Below, one piece after another: positions 28,107 to 40,606 of a DNA stretch of 40,606 bases (positions are counted from its first letter, which is position 1; each line of letters begins with the position of its first letter). Origin of the DNA: Verrucomicrobiota bacterium. Its GTDB lineage: Bacteria > Verrucomicrobiota > Verrucomicrobiia > Limisphaerales > PALSA-1396. Made by a program: the position numbers and the translations under genes. A model generated the notes under the pieces. That model made no database searches, was not told the DNA's origin, and saw only the letters and a list, made by a program, of their open reading frames with translations. The stretch covers positions 1 to 40,606 of the forward strand of contig JACQFP010000001.1 of NCBI GenBank assembly GCA_016200005.1, read 5' to 3'.

Positions 28107-29342
28107 ATGAGGTCTGATCCAGCCACCCAACCCATCACCAGCCTGTACGTGCATGTGCCGTTTTGCGCGCGTAAATGCGAGTACTGCGCCTTCTATTCCG
28201 AGGCCTCCAATGGCGAAATCATCGATCGCTATGTGAGAGCACTCATCCGCGAACTGGAGCTGGTGGCCGCCGAGCTCAAGCCGCGCACCGTGTTCTTCGG
28301 CGGCGGCACACCTTCGCTCTTGAACTTGCGGCAATGGGAAAAAATCCTGAAAACAATGGAACGCCTCGACCTCCTTGGAGCGGCGGAGTGGACGGTGGAA
28401 TGCAACCCTGCGACGGTTTCGCTCGACAAAGCCCGGTTGCTGCGCGACTACGGCGTCAATCGCATCTCGATGGGCGTGCAATCCCTTGACGAAACTTTGC
28501 TCGAACGCCTGGGGCGTATCCACACGCGTGACATGGTGTTCAAATCCTTCGACACTTTGCGCGCCGCCGGCTTCGATAACCTCAACATCGATCTGATGTT
28601 TGCGGTTCCCGGCCAGACGATGTCGATCTGGCGCGATACGTTGACCGAAGTGATGGCTTTGGGCAGCGAACATCTTTCCTGTTACGAAGTGATTTATGAG
28701 GAAGACACACCGCTCTACGCGCAGCTTCAGGCGGGGCAGTTTGATGTGGACGAGGATTTGGCCTGCGGGATGTATGACGAGTTGATCGAACGCGGAGCGC
28801 AGGCTGGTTTTGTGCAATATGAAATCGCCAACTTCGCCCGCGACACGCGCGGTGAAAACGGAGTGTTGGCGCGTTGGAGCAATGAGGACCCGGCAATCGT
28901 CCCCTCCATCACTCCATCACTCCATCACTCCATTCCCACCCGCGCCTGCCGGCACAACATCAACTATTGGCGTGGCGGTTCGTTTTATGGGTTGGGTCCC
29001 AGTGCGACCAGTTATGTGCGCGGCGTCCGGACGAAGAACTGGTCGAACACGCAACGCTATTGCCAGCAGTTGGAACGCGGGGCGCGGGCGATTGAATCGC
29101 GCGAAGAACTTTCGCCCCTTTCACGCGCGGGCGAAATTGCGGCGTTCGGTCTGCGGATGAACGCGGGCTGGCCGTTTGCGCAATTCCAACAGATTGCCGG
29201 CAACGATCTGCGTCGGGAATGGTCAGACGAGATGAATCAGTTGGTGGGGCAGGGCTGGGGCCGGATTGACCATCATGGCTTCAGGCTGACGCGAGCCGGA
29301 CTGCGGTTCGCTGATTCTGCCGCCGAGCTGTTTCTGCGCTGA
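28107..29342 (+). CDS. hemW: HemW-like radical SAM haem chaperone with in-frame insertion
   Basis: This 411-residue radical SAM protein has VHVPFCARKCEYCAFYSE with the CxxxCxxC cluster motif, FFGGGTPSLL, NRISMGVQSLD, DLMFAVPGQT and CRHNINYWRGGSFYGLGPSA. These fit HemW (haem chaperone) rather than the coproporphyrinogen dehydrogenase HemN, since the N-terminal extension of HemN is absent. Between IANFAR (about residue 246) and CRHN (about 282) lie about 35 residues that normal HemW lacks; they are encoded by an inverted pair of octamer arrays (28860-28935) that keeps the frame. The protein may still fold, since the site is probably a surface loop. Confidence 0.88.
   Translation: MRSDPATQPITSLYVHVPFCARKCEYCAFYSEASNGEIIDRYVRALIRELELVAAELKPRTVFFGGGTPSLLNLRQWEKILKTMERLDLLGAAEWTVECNPATVSLDKARLLRDYGVNRISMGVQSLDETLLERLGRIHTRDMVFKSFDTLRAAGFDNLNIDLMFAVPGQTMSIWRDTLTEVMALGSEHLSCYEVIYEEDTPLYAQLQAGQFDVDEDLACGMYDELIERGAQAGFVQYEIANFARDTRGENGVLARWSNEDPAIVPSITPSLHHSIPTRACRHNINYWRGGSFYGLGPSATSYVRGVRTKNWSNTQRYCQQLERGARAIESREELSPLSRAGEIAAFGLRMNAGWPFAQFQQIAGNDLRREWSDEMNQLVGQGWGRIDHHGFRLTRAGLRFADSAAELFLR
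28860..28935. repeat. Inverted octamer arrays inserted inside hemW
   Basis: Left arm 28860-28887 reads GGAGTGTT, GGCGCGTT, GGAGCAAT, GAGG; right arm 28904-28935 is CTCCATCA three times plus CTCCATTC. The arms are imperfectly complementary and 16 bp apart. The same units flank the four-helix-bundle gene at 34610-35204. Confidence 0.85.
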
Positions 29343-30477: not shown

Positions 30478-31512
30478 ATGCTCTACCCGCTGACCTTCCA
30501 TCCGATTTTCAAGGAACGTGTCTGGGGTGGGCGAAACCTGGAGCGGCTTTACCGAAAACCGTTGCCGCCGGACGTTCCCATCGGCGAATCGTGGGAGATC
30601 TCCGACCGCCCCAACGACGTGAGTGTGATTGCCAACGGCCCGCTGCGCGGCAAGGACCTGCGCTGGTTGATGGAGAATCACGCGCAAGAATTACTCGGTT
30701 CAGCCAAGTCGCAGGCCGGACGCTTTCCGCTGCTGGTCAAGATTCTCGACGCCCAGGAGAAACTTTCTTTGCAAGTGCATCCTCCAGCATCCGTCACCGC
30801 GCAACTCGGCGGCCCGCCCCGTGGAATAATGAGCCCATCCAGTGCGGCGGCGGTCCTGCCTTCTATTCCACGGGGCGAGCCGAAGACGGAGATGTGGTAC
30901 ATCGCCGACGCCACGCCCGACGCCGAACTGTTCGTCGGCCTGAACCGCGGCGTCACGCGCGCACAGTTCGAACGCAGGATTCGAGATGGCACGGTCGCGG
31001 AGTGTTTTCATCGACTGCGCGTGCGAACGGACGACGCCATGTTCTTACCGAGTGGGCGTGTTCACGCCATCGGCGCGGGCAACGTCATCTTCGAGATCCA
31101 ACAGAACTCGGACACGACGTATCGCGTGTTCGACTGGAACCGCCTGGGTTTGGACGGCAAACCACGCCAACTCCACATCGCCCAATCGCTGGCCAGCATC
31201 AATTTCAACGACTTCGAACCGTCGCTGATCCAAAGTCAATGGACACCAATGGGCGATGGACAAACGCGTCGTCTGGTTGACGACCCGCTGTTTCGAATTG
31301 ATGCGTTGGAAATTCGATCCGGTAACGCCATGCTCTTGCGAAAACCCGGGCTGAGGATAATCGGCTTGTTGAAAGGCCGATTGATCGTCGGAAGTGACGC
31401 GCATTCCGTTGAATTGCTGCCCGGCCAAGTTTGTTTGCTGCCCGCCGGATTGAAAGTAGCGGAATTGCAGGGCGGATCGGATTGCACTTTTCTGCAGGTT
31501 CAAGTCAGTTGA
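30478..31512 (+). CDS. manA: Mannose-6-phosphate isomerase, class I, with 63-bp insertion
   Basis: This 344-residue protein interconverts mannose 6-phosphate and fructose 6-phosphate. It starts MLYPLTFHPIFKERVWGG and has the metal-site LSLQVHPPAS, EPKTEMWYI, and the active-site stretch PSGRVHAIGAGNVIFEIQQNSDTTY. In usual members LGG joins directly to EPKTE-like sequence; here about 21 residues (PRGIMSPSSAAAVLPSIPRG) intervene, encoded by a palindromic 63-bp element that preserves the frame. It lies 88 bp after accA. Confidence 0.92.
   Translation: MLYPLTFHPIFKERVWGGRNLERLYRKPLPPDVPIGESWEISDRPNDVSVIANGPLRGKDLRWLMENHAQELLGSAKSQAGRFPLLVKILDAQEKLSLQVHPPASVTAQLGGPPRGIMSPSSAAAVLPSIPRGEPKTEMWYIADATPDAELFVGLNRGVTRAQFERRIRDGTVAECFHRLRVRTDDAMFLPSGRVHAIGAGNVIFEIQQNSDTTYRVFDWNRLGLDGKPRQLHIAQSLASINFNDFEPSLIQSQWTPMGDGQTRRLVDDPLFRIDALEIRSGNAMLLRKPGLRIIGLLKGRLIVGSDAHSVELLPGQVCLLPAGLKVAELQGGSDCTFLQVQVS
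30815..30877 (+). repeat. 63-bp palindromic element in frame inside manA
   Basis: Ends CGCCCCGTGGAATA (30815-30828) and TATTCCACGGGGCG (30864-30877) are perfect inverted repeats around a 35-bp core. A second element of exactly the same length and ends lies in pdhC (36262-36324). Both read PRGI...RG on the coding strand. Confidence 0.9.
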
Positions 31513-31513
31513 C

Positions 31514-31531
31514 CCTGAGTCGCCACTCAGG
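31514..31531 (+). terminator. Hairpin after manA, weak terminator
   Basis: CCTGAGT, loop CGCC, ACTCAGG is a perfect 7-bp stem two bases after the manA stop, but it has no T-tract, so termination is uncertain. The 31532-31682 gap shows nothing further. Confidence 0.4.
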
Positions 31532-31682
31532 AAACTCTTCGAAAAAGTTTGCCCCTTGATATTGTCAGCCAGTTGACTCATCTTCTTCACGCGATGGATA
31601 TTTAACCGCGAAGATCTGCTGATGTGGCCTTCAGGACCGGCTTCTTCAAGGGGTTCTCTGCGGGTTTCAAGTCGCCGAACAA

Positions 31683-32111
31683 ATGCCGCCCGGACTTAAA
31701 TCATTTTTGCAAAGCTGGCTCATCAACACGCTGGCCGTGCTGGTCGCCACCCAAATTGTCAAAGGGATTCACTACGACAGTTGGGATGGCTTGCTGGCGG
31801 CCACGCTGGTGCTGGGCATTCTGAACGCGATTCTGCGGCCGTTACTGTTATTGCTCTCGCTGCCGTTGGTCATTCTCACACTCGGGTTGTTTACGTTGGT
31901 GATCAATGCGGTGCTGCTTTATCTTGTGGGCGGACTTATCCCGGCGTTTCACGTCGATAGCTTCGGCTACGCCTTGCTGGGCGCGCTCCTCATCAGCATC
32001 GTGTCCGTAGTGCTCAATACGCTGACGGGCACGGGCAAATCGCGAATTCAGGTGCACCGTAGCAAACGCCCGCCCGACCGCGATGATGACGGCCCGGTGA
32101 TCGATGTGTAA
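31683..32111 (+). CDS. Phage-holin-family (PF04020-like) membrane protein
   Basis: This 142-residue protein has four TM segments: WLINTLAVLVATQIV, LLAATLVLGILNAIL, VILTLGLFTLVINAVLLYLV and ALLGALLISIVSVVL, with the family motif NAILRPLLLLLSLPLVILTLG. It ends with a charged cytoplasmic tail (RSKRPPDRDDDG). The name holin is historical; the protein is a common chromosomal membrane protein of unknown role. It is convergent with trmB. Confidence 0.8.
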   Translation: MPPGLKSFLQSWLINTLAVLVATQIVKGIHYDSWDGLLAATLVLGILNAILRPLLLLLSLPLVILTLGLFTLVINAVLLYLVGGLIPAFHVDSFGYALLGALLISIVSVVLNTLTGTGKSRIQVHRSKRPPDRDDDGPVIDV

Positions 32112-32114
32112 CCG

Positions 32115-32190
32115 TTGGAGTTCAAGCTTCAGCTTGCTTTTGTTGCATCGACCGACACTGACGCCCAAAAAGCTAAAGCTTGAACTCCAA
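32115..32190. repeat. Inverted repeat at convergent gene ends
   Basis: Arms 32115-32135 (TTGGAGTTCAAGCTTCAGCT...) and 32170-32190 match at 20 of 21 bases as reverse complements. The right arm also encodes the last five residues and stop of trmB (LEFKL). It could work as a bidirectional terminator. Confidence 0.8.
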
Positions 32191-32799
32191 TCGATAGGCC
32201 GCCCGCCGCGTGGCGACGCCGCGCGCATGAAAATTCCGCTCGAAGTCGGTGAGCACTGCGCTCAACGACTCCGGAGTTTCGACCAACCGAAAGGACGAGT
32301 TGGCCGCAAAGACGGTGACCATCTGAGAGAAATATTCTTCATCATCCGTGCGCAAATAAAGCACCCCGCCGGGCGCAAGCGCCCGTCTCGCCAGTTCCGG
32401 AAACCGTGCGTCAATCAGCCGGTTCTTGCGGTGTTTCCGTTTCGGCCATGGGTCGGGAAAGTAAACGTGCAGCGCCACGGCAGATTGTGGTGGCAACAAA
32501 TATTCCAGGAAATAGGCCGACTCGATGCGCAGCCCTCGCAAGTTATGCAAGCCGGCGCGCAGACCCTTGCGGTCGAGTTTTCGCAGGCGACCGAGCAATC
32601 GCTCCACACCGAGGTAATTATGGTCGGGGTGTGCGTTGGCGTAGTTCACCAGGAATGATCCGTCGCCACTGCCCAGCTCCACTTCCAACGGCTGGCTTTG
32701 CGGAAAGAGTTGCGCCAGATCGAGCCGCTCCACGATGGAGGGGATTTGGTAGATCAGACTGGTCGCCGCAACGAGTTTGGTAATCGAGCCTTCATTCAT
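32173..32799 (-). CDS. trmB: tRNA (guanine-N7)-methyltransferase
   Basis: This 208-residue enzyme makes m7G46 in the tRNA variable loop. Motifs: VELGSGDGSFLVNYA (SAM site) and the family hallmark YFPDPWPKRKHRKNRLI, then LRTDDEEYFSQMV. The C-terminal LEFKL comes from the arm of the inverted repeat at 32115-32190, so the tail may have been replaced. It lies upstream of the tRNA-Pro gene's 3' side with no clear operon partner. Confidence 0.93.
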   Translation of the reverse strand: MNEGSITKLVAATSLIYQIPSIVERLDLAQLFPQSQPLEVELGSGDGSFLVNYANAHPDHNYLGVERLLGRLRKLDRKGLRAGLHNLRGLRIESAYFLEYLLPPQSAVALHVYFPDPWPKRKHRKNRLIDARFPELARRALAPGGVLYLRTDDEEYFSQMVTVFAANSSFRLVETPESLSAVLTDFERNFHARGVATRRAAYRLEFKL

Positions 32800-32906
32800 G
32801 CCGTTGTTTCAACGTGCGACGCGCAGCCTCATGAGTATTCATCCGCCGGGAAACCAACGGTTGCGCAAACTCGCAACCGGCAACCTGCAACCTGTGACCA
32901 AATGAA

Positions 32907-32983
32907 TGGTCGGGGCGGTGAGATTTGAACTCACGACCTTCTGAACCCCATTCAGACGCGCTACCAAGCTACGCTACGCCCCG
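32907..32983 (-). tRNA. tRNA-Pro (anticodon GGG), CCA encoded
   Basis: On the minus strand the acceptor CGGGGCG (32983-32977) pairs with CGCCCCG (32917-32911), followed by discriminator A and an encoded CCA (32909-32907). The anticodon arm TCTGA-ATGGGGT-TCAGA places GGG at positions 34-36 after U33. The T-arm shows GTTCAAATC. All arms fold well. It is a single, isolated tRNA gene. Confidence 0.95.
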
Positions 32984-33079
32984 AACCATTTCGCCCGTCA
33001 TACAACCGAGCGAGCCGGAATACTACTGCGACCCATCTCAAATTCAACAAGAAGATTTCGCTCAGACGCGTTCCTATGG

Positions 33080-33164
33080 CACGGCGGAGCGCGGACAGCC
33101 TTGTCCGCGCGTTCTCAACTGGTAGGCGGCATTTCGAGGACAAGACTGTCCGCGCTCCGGCGTG
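33080..33164. repeat. Palindromic element between tRNA-Pro and lpdA
   Basis: Left arm 33080-33106 and right arm 33138-33164 are reverse complements with two mismatches; the core is GGAGCGCGGACAG / CTGTCCGCGCTCC. It sits 11 bp beyond the lpdA stop, so it could terminate lpdA. Confidence 0.8.
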
Positions 33165-33175
33165 GTGAAGGCCCA

Positions 33176-34600
33176 TCAAGCACTCGTTTGTTTCTTCCGC
33201 ACGAATGTATGCGTCGGATGTCCGTAAAAAACTTCCGCGCACTCCATCAACGTCTCGGACAACGTGGGATGCGGATGCACCGTCAATGCAAGGTCCTTCG
33301 CCGTCGCGCCCATCTCGATGGCCAGCACGCCCTCCGCAATCAGCTCCCCTGCCCCATGGCCCACGATGCCGACGCCGAGAATGCGTTCGGTTTCGGGATC
33401 GATGATCAACTTCGTCAGTCCGTCGGTCCGATCAAACGTCAACGCCCGACCGGACGCCGCCCACGGGAATTTAACAACCTCCACCGCAATGCCCTTCTGT
33501 TTCGCTTCGACTTCGGTCAAGCCACACCAGGCAACTTCCGGATCGGTAAACACCACGGCGGGGATCACGACACCTTCAAACGCGCTCGCGCCACCGCTGA
33601 TGACTTCGACGGCGATGCGCGCCTCTTTGGAGGCTTTATGCGCCAGCAACACACCGCCCGCGATATCGCCAATCGCGTAAATCGCCGGGTCGCTCGTTTG
33701 TTGTTTCTCATTCACCTTGATGAAGCCCTTGTCGTCGCACGTCACCTTGGTGTTTTCCAAGCCGAGGTCATCGCAATTCGGCACGCGCCCCACGGCAACC
33801 AGAACGCGATCGTAGAGTTCCTCCCTCTTCTGCCCTTCGACCTCCAACTCGACTTTGATCTGCTTGCCACTCGTGGCCATCTTCAAGACCTTGGCCTTGA
33901 CGCGAATTTCTTTGAACGCCTTCTTCGCGTAAGCCATGACCGGGCGGGCAAGATCAGGATCAGCACCCATCAGAATCGAATCCAATGCTTCCACCATCAC
34001 GACCCTGCTGCCCAGCGTGGCATAAACCGTCCCCAACTCCATGCCGATGTAACCGCCGCCGACCACCAAAAGATTTTCAGGGATTTCCTCAATGTCCAGC
34101 GCTTCGCGCGACGTCATGATGCGCGGATTGCCCAGATCAAATGCCTTGGGCATGGCGGACTTCGAACCGGCGGCGATGATGGCCTGGTCGTAAGTAATGA
34201 ATTTTTGTCCCTCCTCTGTTTCTACGCGCAGAGTTTTGGAGTCTTCAAAATAACCCCGGCCATAGACCACTTCCACGCCGCGCATCTTGGCCAGTTGCGC
34301 AATGCCGCCGGCAAGCTTTTGCAGAATTGATTCCTTCCATTCGCGAAGCTTGGCCAAGTCGATCTTCGGCGCTTCAAATGTAATGCCGCGATGACTCGAT
34401 TCCTGCGCTGCGGTGATCGTGTGTGTCGCGTGCAACAATGCCTTCGACGGAATGCAACCGCGATTCAAGCACACACCGCCGAGACGTTTGTCACGTTCGA
34501 CGAGAATGACTTTCTTGCCGAGGTCGGCGGCGTAAAACGCGGCGGCATAACCGCCCGGGCCGGCACCGACGACCACGATTTCAGTTTTGATTGGGTCCAT
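33176..34600 (-). CDS. lpdA: Dihydrolipoamide dehydrogenase (E3)
   Basis: This 474-residue flavoprotein reoxidises lipoyl groups. It starts MDPIKTEIVVVGAGPGGYAA (FAD site), has the redox pair in GGVCLNRGCIPSKALLHA, an NAD site (LLVVGGGYIGMELGTVYA) and the C-terminal HPHPTLSETLMECAEVFYGH with the active-site His/Glu. The frame extends further upstream to 34720, but those codons read through GGAGTNNT repeat units, so ATG 34600 is right. No ribosome binding site is seen: the repeat array begins 10 bp upstream. It was probably next to pdhC before the four-helix gene was inserted. Confidence 0.96.
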   Translation of the reverse strand: MDPIKTEIVVVGAGPGGYAAAFYAADLGKKVILVERDKRLGGVCLNRGCIPSKALLHATHTITAAQESSHRGITFEAPKIDLAKLREWKESILQKLAGGIAQLAKMRGVEVVYGRGYFEDSKTLRVETEEGQKFITYDQAIIAAGSKSAMPKAFDLGNPRIMTSREALDIEEIPENLLVVGGGYIGMELGTVYATLGSRVVMVEALDSILMGADPDLARPVMAYAKKAFKEIRVKAKVLKMATSGKQIKVELEVEGQKREELYDRVLVAVGRVPNCDDLGLENTKVTCDDKGFIKVNEKQQTSDPAIYAIGDIAGGVLLAHKASKEARIAVEVISGGASAFEGVVIPAVVFTDPEVAWCGLTEVEAKQKGIAVEVVKFPWAASGRALTFDRTDGLTKLIIDPETERILGVGIVGHGAGELIAEGVLAIEMGATAKDLALTVHPHPTLSETLMECAEVFYGHPTHTFVRKKQTSA

Positions 34601-34609
34601 AGAGGAATT

Positions 34610-35204
34610 GGAGTGATGGAGTGTTGGAGTATTGGGGGGAATTGAGCGTTGGAGTTGTGGAGTATTGGTTTTTAGCCGTAGGTGACGTTGCTTTCTTTGA
34701 TGACCAGATGATCGATCCAATCGCCGTCCATTTCCTTTCGCTCCAGACTTTCCACGAGTTTCAGCAAGCCGTTTTCGAGTTTGTAGGCCAGCGAGTTCAA
34801 GCGGTCGAAATCCAATTCGCCTAGTTGCTGGGCCTTTCGATACGCATACAAACCGGAGACTGTTTCGCCGAGCGAACCCAAGGCGAAATTCAGAAATTGG
34901 AGATACTCACGCAGCGAACGCCGGCAGTAGCCCTCGGCGATGTTGCGATGCACCGAATCCGCGGAGGCAATGGCTTGGGAGGCGACTCGCTTCAACTCAT
35001 ACGGGAATGCCCGGAAAACCGGACACGTCATGGCGTAATACTCAATCGCATCCTGCCACACGCGCAATTGCTGGTAACCACGGTTTTTGTCCTTGTATTC
35101 AGTCATAGTTAAATGGAGTGACGTTATTCCAGCGATGGAGATATCGAGAAACTGCCGCGTCTTCGGTTCAACACTCCATCACTCCATAACTCCACCACTC
35201 CGTT
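34610..35204 (-). mobile_element. Octamer-flanked four-helix-bundle gene inserted between pdhC and lpdA
   Basis: One side (34610-34668) has units GGAGTGAT, GGAGTGTT, GGAGTATT, a 17-bp interruption, then GGAGTTGT and GGAGTATT. The other (35173-35204) has ACTCCATC, ACTCCATA, ACTCCACC and ACTCCGTT. They are inverted with respect to each other and enclose one gene. The outer edge of one array touches the pdhC stop codon and the other lies 9 bp before the lpdA start. The whole unit behaves like an inserted element, with inverted arrays as ends. Confidence 0.6.
34672..35106 (-). CDS. Four-helix-bundle protein (23S rRNA IVS/TIGR02436-like)
   Basis: This 144-residue helical protein resembles the S23/IVS-encoded four-helix-bundle family: YQQLRVWQDAIEYYAMTC, FPYELKRVASQAIASADS, NIAEGYCRRSLREYLQFL, ALGSLGETVSGLYAYR and YKLENGLLKLVESLERK. 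Members occur in rRNA intervening sequences and as isolated genes; a relative (Avd) serves diversity-generating retroelements. No reverse transcriptase or variable repeat is present here. It is enclosed by inverted octamer arrays that nearly touch its stop codon, so it may be carried by, or help move, that element. Function is unknown. Confidence 0.85.
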   Translation of the reverse strand: MTEYKDKNRGYQQLRVWQDAIEYYAMTCPVFRAFPYELKRVASQAIASADSVHRNIAEGYCRRSLREYLQFLNFALGSLGETVSGLYAYRKAQQLGELDFDRLNSLAYKLENGLLKLVESLERKEMDGDWIDHLVIKESNVTYG

Positions 35205-36553
35205 CATATCTTTACATCCGCTTCTGCGAAATTCTCCAGCGCTTGCACCAGGTCCACTGTGAAGCGCGCCGCTGTGCCGCCGTCGATCACGCGATGGTCA
35301 TACGAAAGTCCGATGGGCAACATCATGCGCGGCACGATTTGTTTGTCTTTGACGACTGGCTTCAGAACCCCGCGACCCAGGCCGAGAATGGCGACCTCCG
35401 GTTTGTTGATGATGGGCGTGAAGTGCGAACCGCCAATACCGCCCTGATTCGAGATGGTGAACGTGCCGCCCTTCAGTTCATCGAGCGAAACTTTACGGTC
35501 GCGGGCCTTCTGCGCCAGCGCCTCCAGTTCCTTCGAGAGATCGAGCAGGCTTTTCTTATCGACATCGCGAATCACAGGAACAATTAAACCCGCCTCCGTA
35601 TCAACCGCGACGCCGATGTGGTAATACTCCTTCAAAAGGACTTCCCCGGCGGCTTCATCGAGGCTCGCATTGAAGCTCGGATGCTTTTTCAACGTTGCCA
35701 CAACGGCCTTCAACGCAAACGGCGTCAACGTCAGCCGCGCTCCTTTTTGTTCGTAAGCCGGGGCGTACTTCTTCCGGAGTTCGAGTAACGCGGTGATGTC
35801 GGCGTCATCGAACTGCGTGACATGCGGAATCGTGTTCCAATTCTCCGCCATTCGCCGGCTGATGACCTTGCGCAGCGATGACATGGGCTTCTTGGAAATT
35901 TCGCCCCACTTGGAAAAATCGACCACTTCTGCAGTCGCCTTTTGCGCAGGTGCAGCGGAGGGCTTGGGTTGCGCCGTCAGTTTTTGCAGGCGCTGGACGT
36001 AAGCCCGGAGATCAGCCATCCCGATGCGCCCGCCGCGCTCACTGCCGCGCACCCGGGTCAAGTCGATGCCGAGTTCACGCGCCGCCTGCCGAACTGAAGG
36101 CGATGCTGCCGCCGGCAGATCGGAGGTCGGAAGTCGGAGGCCAGAGGTCTGACTTCTGTCCTTTGTCGTCTGTCGTCTGTCCTCTGCAGCTTCAGGCGTT
36201 TCTGGTTTTGATGGAGGCTCTTCTTCGGCAGACACTGCCGGTCTCGCTTCGGCCTGTCCCCCGCCCCGCTGAATAACCGTGGGTTCATCCTCTGCAGTAG
36301 GTGCGCCGTTTATTCCACGGGGCGAGGCGGCAACCGTAAGGATGCGCTGGCCGACGCTGAGTTTGTCGCCTTCCTTGACATGGATTTTGGTGATAACACC
36401 CGCGACGGTGGAAGGAATAGGCGCAACGGCCTTTTCATTCTCCAACTCCAGAAGAGTTTGATTCAGTTCAATCCGGTCGCCTTCCTTGACCAAAAGGCTG
36501 ACCACGGTGCCGGAATCCGCACCTTCACCAAGTTTGGGTAACTTCACGTCCAT
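35204..36553 (-). CDS. 2-oxoacid dehydrogenase E2, dihydrolipoyl acyltransferase
   Basis: This 449-residue protein is probably the pyruvate-type E2. An N-terminal lipoyl domain has the target Lys in ELENEKAVAP (about residue 41). A linker (about 78-148) is mosaic: residues 77-98 come from a 63-bp palindromic element and residues about 121-145 (RRQTTKDRSQTSGL) from a heptamer array. Then come the E1/E3-binding domain (about 150-185) and the catalytic domain with LSYDHRVIDGG. ATG 36553 is the start (MDVKLPKLGEG); the longer frame reads repeat DNA. E1 genes are not in this window. Confidence 0.92.
   Translation of the reverse strand: MDVKLPKLGEGADSGTVVSLLVKEGDRIELNQTLLELENEKAVAPIPSTVAGVITKIHVKEGDKLSVGQRILTVAASPRGINGAPTAEDEPTVIQRGGGQAEARPAVSAEEEPPSKPETPEAAEDRRQTTKDRSQTSGLRLPTSDLPAAASPSVRQAARELGIDLTRVRGSERGGRIGMADLRAYVQRLQKLTAQPKPSAAPAQKATAEVVDFSKWGEISKKPMSSLRKVISRRMAENWNTIPHVTQFDDADITALLELRKKYAPAYEQKGARLTLTPFALKAVVATLKKHPSFNASLDEAAGEVLLKEYYHIGVAVDTEAGLIVPVIRDVDKKSLLDLSKELEALAQKARDRKVSLDELKGGTFTISNQGGIGGSHFTPIINKPEVAILGLGRGVLKPVVKDKQIVPRMMLPIGLSYDHRVIDGGTAARFTVDLVQALENFAEADVKI
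36121..36190. repeat. Heptamer array in the E2 linker
   Basis: Ten consecutive 7-nt blocks are seen: four like CGGAGGT, then CTGACTT and five of CTGTCCT/CTGTCGT type. The array is translated in frame in the E2 linker. Confidence 0.8.
36262..36324 (-). repeat. 63-bp palindromic element in frame inside pdhC/E2
   Basis: Ends CGCCCCGCTGAATAA (36262-36276) and TTATTCCACGGGGCG (36310-36324) are inverted repeats with two mismatches. Length and ends match the manA copy (30815-30877). On the coding strand both give PRGI, 12-13 varied residues, and RG. Confidence 0.9.
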
Positions 36554-40465: not shown

Positions 40466-40606
40466 AGAGAAATTTCCAAAAGTTGTGGATGGCGGGGGGT
40501 GGAGGGCATCCCAAGGGTAAATGTGTTTACGCTGCTATTGCCTTGGGGTTGAGTTCGACACCATCGACGAACTTCACTCCCGCGATCACGCGATCCAGTA
40601 ACTCAT
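40466..40606 (-). mobile_element. End of an unidentified insertion sequence, right copy
   Basis: Exact reverse complement of 1-141. The transposase tail reads on the minus strand with its stop at 40527-40529, so both copies point their 3' ends into the window. Confidence 0.7.
40527..40606 (-). CDS. Transposase C-terminus, partial, second copy
   Basis: The same 25-residue tail as at 1-80, ending NPKAIAA, on the other strand. The gene runs off the window. Confidence 0.45.
   Translation of the reverse strand, partial: ELLDRVIAGVKFVDGVELNPKAIAA

Follow-up and report, generated by a model that had tools for sequence, protein, structure and literature searches.

A family of short palindromic elements, inserted in frame in conserved genes of a Verrucomicrobiota bacterium

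Palindromic elements that lie in frame inside genes are best known from Rickettsia. In published accounts, Rickettsia palindromic elements (RPEs) are short palindromes with terminal inverted repeats that occur between genes and in frame in conserved genes, where they are read as peptides, and an RPE-bearing guanylate kinase is translated and active with a changed substrate affinity (PMC2229807; PMC10969869). These accounts place RPEs in about ten families of 105-146 or about 150 bp in Rickettsia, and RPE-4 and RPE-6 are described as short repeats resembling repetitive extragenic palindromic (REP) sequences (PMC3733652). REPs themselves are small palindromes, 20-40 bp long and ending on one side in GTAG or CGTC, which are mostly intergenic and sometimes inside open reading frames (ORFs). 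The same account gives Opitutus terrae, which belongs to the Verrucomicrobiota, as the species with the most intragenic GTAG repeats among the genomes examined (PMC3733652). Miniature inverted-repeat transposable elements (MITEs), such as the 107-bp Correia/NEMIS and 127-bp ERIC elements, are presented as non-autonomous, with inverted ends, TA termini and a target duplication, and as fused in frame with genes (PMC2229807). Here, we analysed a stretch of 40,606 nt (the window) from a Verrucomicrobiota bacterium of the order Limisphaerales (contig JACQFP010000001.1), in which a 63-nt palindromic unit occurs once in manA and once in a gene for the E2 component of a 2-oxoacid dehydrogenase. An initial annotation, made from the letters alone, had interpreted the two units as in-frame palindromic insertions and had named RPEs as the parallel; our results support both, and the underlying observation is confirmed and larger than first described. 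Very probably, both units represent a short palindromic mobile element that is non-autonomous and translated in place, like an RPE but shorter and in another phylum.

Direct reading of the sequence showed that both units, at 30815-30877 and 36262-36324, are 63 nt long with the ends CGCCCCGTGGAATA / TATTCCACGGGGCG, and that the left end of the E2 copy on the + strand, CGCCCCGCTGAATA, carries two changes, as had been reported. The equal length is divisible by three, and the coding-frame peptides, PRGIMSPSSAAAVLPSIPRG in ManA and PRGINGAPTAEDEPTVIQRG in E2, follow the pattern PRGI-12-I(P/Q)RG in a common frame, which again agrees with the initial annotation. The genes and units are arranged as follows.

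30478..31512, + strand: manA, type I phosphomannose isomerase (Pfam PF20511; 80 relatives; predicted model)
30815..30877, + strand: palindromic element, manA copy, 63 nt, reading PRGIMSPSSAAAVLPSIPRG
30815..30828, + strand: left 14-nt arm CGCCCCGTGGAATA of the manA copy
30864..30877, - strand: right 14-nt arm of the manA copy, reverse complement of the left arm
35204..36553, - strand: 2-oxoacid dehydrogenase E2 (acyltransferase; Pfam PF00364, PF02817, PF00198)
36262..36324, - strand: palindromic element, E2 copy, 63 nt, reading PRGINGAPTAEDEPTVIQRG, between the lipoyl and E3-binding domains
36262..36275, + strand: two-change arm CGCCCCGCTGAATA of the E2 copy
36311..36324, - strand: intact arm of the E2 copy

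The manA start is the ATG at 30478, chosen by alignment with relatives, and the E2 start was taken as the ATG at 36553; the E2 unit lies in the linker, as had been proposed. A covariance model of the family, built with both window copies included, detected the two units at 1.8e-14 to 5.6e-12 (filters off), the next best match being at 0.06. Scanning the window against Rfam at gathering thresholds returned tRNA only, and the element matched no described RNA family.

The clearest evidence for insertion comes from manA. Among the best 80 of 438 relatives, the 21 residues were absent from all 80, which mostly read GG or G directly before EPKTEMW, so the unit splits a normally continuous site, as first suggested; one relative (L099) aligned ambiguously, yet was shorter too. 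The best relative, labelled Limisphaerales bacterium, shares 74% identity, and the others are mostly labelled Verrucomicrobia or Pedosphaera, with some labels of other taxa; no element was found in the manA neighbourhoods of these 80. In a sibling genome of the same genus (G001, 82% complete), which gave no family match, the site reads CTC GGT GGC GAG CCG, where our genome reads CTC GGC GGC, the 63 nt, and then GAG CCG, leaving an exact 63-nt gap at GGC^GAG. The right GAG and the left C are both present in the empty sibling; the insert can equally be placed at 30814-30876, with an ambiguity of up to 3 nt, and any target duplication is at most 1-3 nt. From these flanks, the insertion can equally be described as a 63-nt YCGCCCC...GGGGC unit placed at C^GAG. 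For E2, a single relative with a diverged linker was compared and differed by a net 63 nt, so the empty site called for in the initial annotation is exact for manA and a net length difference for E2. That the units are ordinary conserved protein segments, or a chance similarity, can be practically dismissed: this is already refuted for ManA by the 80 relatives compared (E2 being judged on one), the DNA arms are common to unrelated genes, and the 6.54-Mb genome contains the 12-mer core CCCCGTGGAATA 28 times, 14 on each strand, and the reversed pattern not once.

Surface-loop placement was examined for ManA alone, in a predicted model. The AlphaFold2 model (32 relatives) had a mean predicted local distance difference test (pLDDT) score of 90.9, and its sole segment below 50, residues 112-130, is part of the insert and is flanked by helix 104-110 and strand 138-145. 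The model suggests that the loop need not disturb the fold. Residues Q99, H101, E138 and H196 (own numbering) are invariant across the alignment; we take these to be the residues that bind zinc in type I phosphomannose isomerases, and the insert would accordingly lie near the metal site, judging by sequence position. Separately, the E2 linker holds a second repeat-like stretch at 36100-36190 of the window (TCGGAGGTCGGAAGTCGGAGG... and GTCGTCTGTCGTCTGTCC), which was not seen in the sibling E2 and may be another in-frame repeat.

Empty sites were also recovered elsewhere. FtsA and two sites not called genic, all in one 14-kb stretch, each showed a net difference of 63 nt relative to the sibling; ketol-acid reductoisomerase (KARI, IlvC) carries 21 extra residues at a single point compared with PDB chain 5e4r_A, and in FeoB the insert falls between two aligned blocks of the GTPase domain. 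We then considered another genus (g95), of which 49 genomes were searched and selected matches aligned. At site 4352 (G200:C83:4352), the element is present in G200 and G202 and absent from 10 other aligned congeners, while at site 12811 G200 has the element and 4 aligned genomes lack it, a net difference of 63 nt. At site 18673, an element with arms GTGGAATA lies inside another with arms GTGAAATA; this nested pair, a net 123 nt, is absent from 3 aligned genomes, and the frame is open through both elements. For a further site (G200:C83:7638), no orthologous alignment was recovered at the two loci tried. Taken together, the elements are real insertions into genes that are intact in relatives, present or absent between congeners, and in one case nested.

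The initial annotation had asked for further copies in the genome. A covariance model (R1) built from an alignment of 22 copies found at least 50 distinct copies at E<=0.01, a lower bound in which 150 of 2604 candidates were scored and five weaker places were excluded. Measured from arm to arm, the 50 copies were 63 nt (30), 60 nt (10), 36 nt (5), 62 nt (2) and 39, 59 and 66 nt (one each), and the length was divisible by 3 in 47, the exceptions being 62, 62 and 59. At E<=0.001, a wider model (R2), built on 46 copies, had matches in 31 of the 320 genomes searched within the order (ours among them), spread over 19 of 118 genera; these are lower bounds, with at most 16 candidates scored per genome and strict filters. 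Across 387 genomes of the phylum, with 13 candidates scored per genome, our genome and one other (2.3e-5) gave matches at E<=1e-4. The distribution is patchy and mainly inside the order.

The family has inverted arms of 14-16 bp around a variable centre, with a commonest length of 63 nt and a centre of 32-35 nt in most copies; in most copies the inverted repeat also extends two bases more on each side (CT...AG). Over 16 arm pairs in 46 copies, 92.9% were standard pairs, compared with 35.6-47.2% in slid controls. Changes on both sides were found in 36 cells against 10.6 in shuffles, and 9 of 16 arm pairs carried double changes against 5.0, scores that relatedness of the copies can inflate. Variants such as GGAAT, GGAGT, GGGAT, GAAAT and GGCC were matched in both arms of most carriers while the centres differed, and the hairpin energies of 22 folded copies ranged from -16 to -42 kcal/mol. 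These results show a dispersed family with inverted arms and a variable centre. Arms that covary and stay paired while centres differ could also be expected of functional sites, mRNA hairpins or DNA-protein sites, selected locus by locus and not selfish. We regard this as unlikely, as the units are found in unrelated genes and outside genes, were not detected, at the threshold used, in the sibling or in 289 of the 320 Limisphaerales genomes, and are polymorphic between congeners and nested.

Several groupings were seen beside the typical copies. Three 63-nt copies, two of them called genic, lie within ~420 nt (L236:5008-5423, in G100), and two 66-nt copies on one strand, both called genic, within ~290 nt (L239:3665-3956, in G205). 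Palindromes with short loops and GTGGAATA...ATTCCAC arms form a cluster at L187:2571-5690 (G000:C13:3570-6689); they gave weak model matches (E 0.05-0.5) and are possibly relatives of the family with a minimal centre. The 60-nt copies at L148:2502-2565, L150:2557-2620 and L151:2513-2576 sit inside an outer inverted repeat (e.g. ctctcccact...agtgggagag) and look inserted into the loop of another palindrome. In L190:2514-2903 (G011), two copies with GGCCTG arms occupy a single long ORF of 1799 codons that stays open to the ends of the stretch and which by its motifs we presume to resemble a polyketide synthase.

Next, we considered how the copies sit in reading frames. The coding test was frame-agnostic: codon usage, from a model derived from long ORFs in loci of our genome, was scored per flank for 97 copies (50 own and 47 from other genomes). 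Coding sequence on both flanks and on one strand was found for 28 of them (L195 and L233:4352 among these are one insertion in two genomes), and 27 of the 28 were in frame, divisible by 3 and free of stops, which bears out the expectation that insertions keep frame; the exception, L219, is 62 nt long with short flanks. The PRGI frame (fr2) was used in 21 genic copies, fr1 in 6 and fr0 in none. The remaining 69 copies comprise genic ones below the cut-off and those outside genes, and 14 of them are not divisible by 3. Among 81 distinct copies divisible by 3, the PRGI frame was open on both strands in 72, compared with a mean of 53.3 and a maximum of 65 in 500 shuffles of the centre, and in the 54 of these not called genic it was open in 48, against 33.6 and a maximum of 44; the copies are related, hence not independent events. 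Because the frame is kept, stops are absent, and PRGI...IPRG is open on both strands above shuffled centres, translation of the genic copies in place is strongly supported from sequence.

The host genes are diverse. Of 32 candidate ORFs, 30 were scanned against Pfam and 26 gave a family match. The 14 coding-flanked copies of our genome lie in ManA, KARI, FeoB, FtsA, a phosphoglucomutase/phosphomannomutase, a TPMT-like methyltransferase, an acyltransferase/AMP-binding enzyme, two histidine kinases, a GH38 glycosidase, a glucose/sorbosone dehydrogenase with cytochrome c, a PQQ-repeat protein, a hydrazine synthase alpha-like and F5/8 C domain protein, and one ORF without a match. Weaker cases include E2 and DsbD, with Pfam domains on both sides of the insert, as well as CheA, CheR and glutamyl-tRNA reductase; in the last of these the insertion is close to the C-terminus, and in-frame coding of the right flank is not clear.

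Such hairpins in conserved genes, together with a ManA insert that splits the GG|EPKTEMW contiguous in relatives, might also be explained if the insert were removed as a micro-intron or skipped by a byp-like ribosome hop over the hairpin, leaving the protein unchanged. Removal or bypass would, however, free both length and stops, yet 27 of 28 coding-flanked copies are in frame and stop-free, and in the whole set the frame is open on both strands more often than expected by chance. In the nested insert no stop interrupts the net 123 nt, and the preceding codon varies (GGC, GAC, AGC, CGC, ACC, GCC, TAC), so there is no common take-off or landing codon. On these grounds of frame, stops and preceding codon, we did not favour this explanation and consider it very improbable.

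The flanks point to a target. The ends were CTYG...CRAG in 63 of 96 distinct copies, and no listed end pair was GTAG or CGTC. Among fr2 genic copies, an NNC codon precedes the element in 21 of 21 and RAG follows in 20 of 21, counts that are partly built into the model (consensus ends CT...AG); at site 4352, the insertion place is CGC GAG in 2 of the 10 congeners without the element. We infer insertion at C^RAG, with no target duplication beyond 1-3 nt. Across 132 coding ORFs from loci of our genome, the RAG of CRAG is a codon 1306 times and is shifted 362 and 181 times, which predicts about 71:20:10 for fr2:fr1:fr0; the observed 21:6:0 fits (fr2:fr1 p=1.0) and departs from 1:1 (21:6, p=0.006). 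CTYG, the target on the other strand, has phases of 573:1093:147 for fr2:fr1:fr0. The favoured frame may thus follow from the target, wholly or partly. A phase preference as protein-level selection is claimed neither way, since the sense CRAG phases predict the bias fully (p=1.0) and adding CTYG leaves some of it (p=0.03). A mutual avoidance of a left-outer T and a right-outer A in oriented ends was dropped after a wider set gave p=0.48.

A number of results speak against parts of this account. The C^RAG target rests on few sites: it is exact at manA and at site 4352 (2 of 10 congeners), FtsA, 12811 and 18673 are consistent with it, though their empty relatives differ in letters, and the right end in E2 is GGG. 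A few copies end in 4-nt direct repeats that C^RAG does not explain. When CTYG is counted equally, the predicted fr2 share drops and 21:6 departs from it (p=0.03). The absence of fr0 (0 of 27 against 2.6 expected from the target) is not significant (p about 0.06-0.08), and two copies below the cut-off read fr0 in long ORFs, in CheA (36 nt) and L180 (66 nt). In hemA (L161), it is not clear that the right flank is coding in frame. Genic copies and the rest differ only marginally in how often their length is divisible by 3 (27/28 against 55/69, Fisher p=0.06), so this divisibility belongs mostly to the element as such, and both-strand openness in the 27 genic copies (24 against a shuffled mean of 19.5 and a maximum of 25) is within the shuffles. 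On one covariation measure, further pair types in the arms were at shuffle level (17 against 17.0), and translation is read from sequence only. Lastly, no mobilising enzyme was found: within up to 1.5 kb, none of 34 Y1_Tnp loci (4 own and 30 from 9 other genomes, of 71 matches listed in 10 genomes; R2 search, E<=1) carried an element, and the sibling without elements has 8 Y1_Tnp matches.

The copies with 4-nt direct repeats in place of CTYG...CRAG ends are L185:2562-2628 (CCAG), L220:1501-1567 (CCAG), L160:6225-6291 (CTGG) and L235:1979-2045 (CACG), and perhaps reflect a target duplication.

A more specific form of the mobile-element reading is that a Y1/HUH transposase mobilises the copies by single-strand cleavage at CT with no target duplication, as proposed for REPs with TnpA-REP, the REP-associated tyrosine transposase (RAYT). 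The hairpin ends, the C|T that most copies show at the left junction and the duplication of no longer than 1-3 nt at manA agree with this, and TnpA-REP is described as cleaving at CT 5' or 3' of the REP (PMC8266576). Y1_Tnp matches are also present, 4 in our genome and some in 9 of 9 other genomes tried. Set against these are the 34 loci without an element, the element-free sibling with its 8 matches and the absence of a conserved GTAG foot, and we regard this form as possible but doubtful. A single 14-mer resembling an arm (2 mismatches) was located ~0.7 kb ahead of a Y1_Tnp domain (C6:268249), with no close partner seen. A parent autonomous element, as a longer arm pair, was not seen among 100 of the 155 arm matches, and no systematic search for it was made.

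For a short palindromic mobile element translated in place, the following course can be envisaged. The element would insert at C^RAG, where the sense-strand RAG is usually a Glu or Lys codon, and insertion would thus begin at a codon boundary, in the open PRGI...IPRG frame. Glu and Lys tend toward protein surfaces; because the unit is 21 codons long and enters at such sites, it might often add a tolerated loop. The arms would be maintained as a pair by an enzyme recognising the palindrome, and our guess is that a trans-acting enzyme, possibly of the single-strand HUH/Y1 kind, mobilises the element. The element may even be built for life in genes, with a whole-codon length, an open frame on both strands kept by selection, and a C^RAG target on Glu/Lys codons that gives the right phase and tolerated surface loops; we offer this tentatively, leaning somewhat against it. 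If true, it would be a general route for a selfish hairpin to seed new loops in core enzymes.

In comparison with the systems described above, the family shares with RPEs a dispersed palindrome with terminal inverted repeats and in-frame insertion into conserved genes, and falls outside the length of the main RPE families (about 105-150 bp) at 36-66 nt. It is mostly 63 nt (also 60, 36, 39 and 66), has other arms, occurs in another phylum with a patchy spread over one order, and comes with a candidate C^RAG target, one nested case and empty sites that could be resolved. It appears to work like an RPE and is not classed as one, being set apart by length in a comparison with RPEs by description. 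By the features examined, end motif and linked Y1 gene, it is not a GTAG/CGTC REP: there is no conserved GTAG/CGTC end, the centre is mostly 32-35 nt, and no element lies in the Y1_Tnp loci examined. As in MITEs, the inverted repeats are terminal and the length is too short for a transposase; unlike Correia/NEMIS and ERIC, it shows no duplication beyond 1-3 nt at manA and is about half the size. The initial annotation knew of no such family in this group. This holds for the 63-nt family itself, of which no published description was found in the literature searched (most subscription journals being outside its coverage; the letters of the arms turned up in three papers with unrelated titles), and fails for the kind, which is not new to the phylum given the intragenic GTAG REPs, a different family, in Opitutus terrae.

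Other repeats were noted in passing. The window begins and ends in a perfect 141-nt inverted repeat (1-141 and 40466-40606), where assembly perhaps halted, and contains octamer tandem arrays, CTCCATCA-like and GGAGTGAT-like, at 28888-28943, 34596-34676 and 35158-35213. A different repeat of ~100-200 nt (L236:11879-12090) is matched at a great many places in the five f47 family genomes that were searched.

The family thus extends a Rickettsia-like way of life to another phylum and to genomes of several megabases, where empty and filled sites stand side by side with a candidate target and a nested copy. It makes testable how the element is tolerated in ftsA, ilvC, feoB, manA and the E2 gene, and whether it supplies new protein loops. 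It is also a warning that odd insertions in conserved genes of assembled genomes are not necessarily errors.

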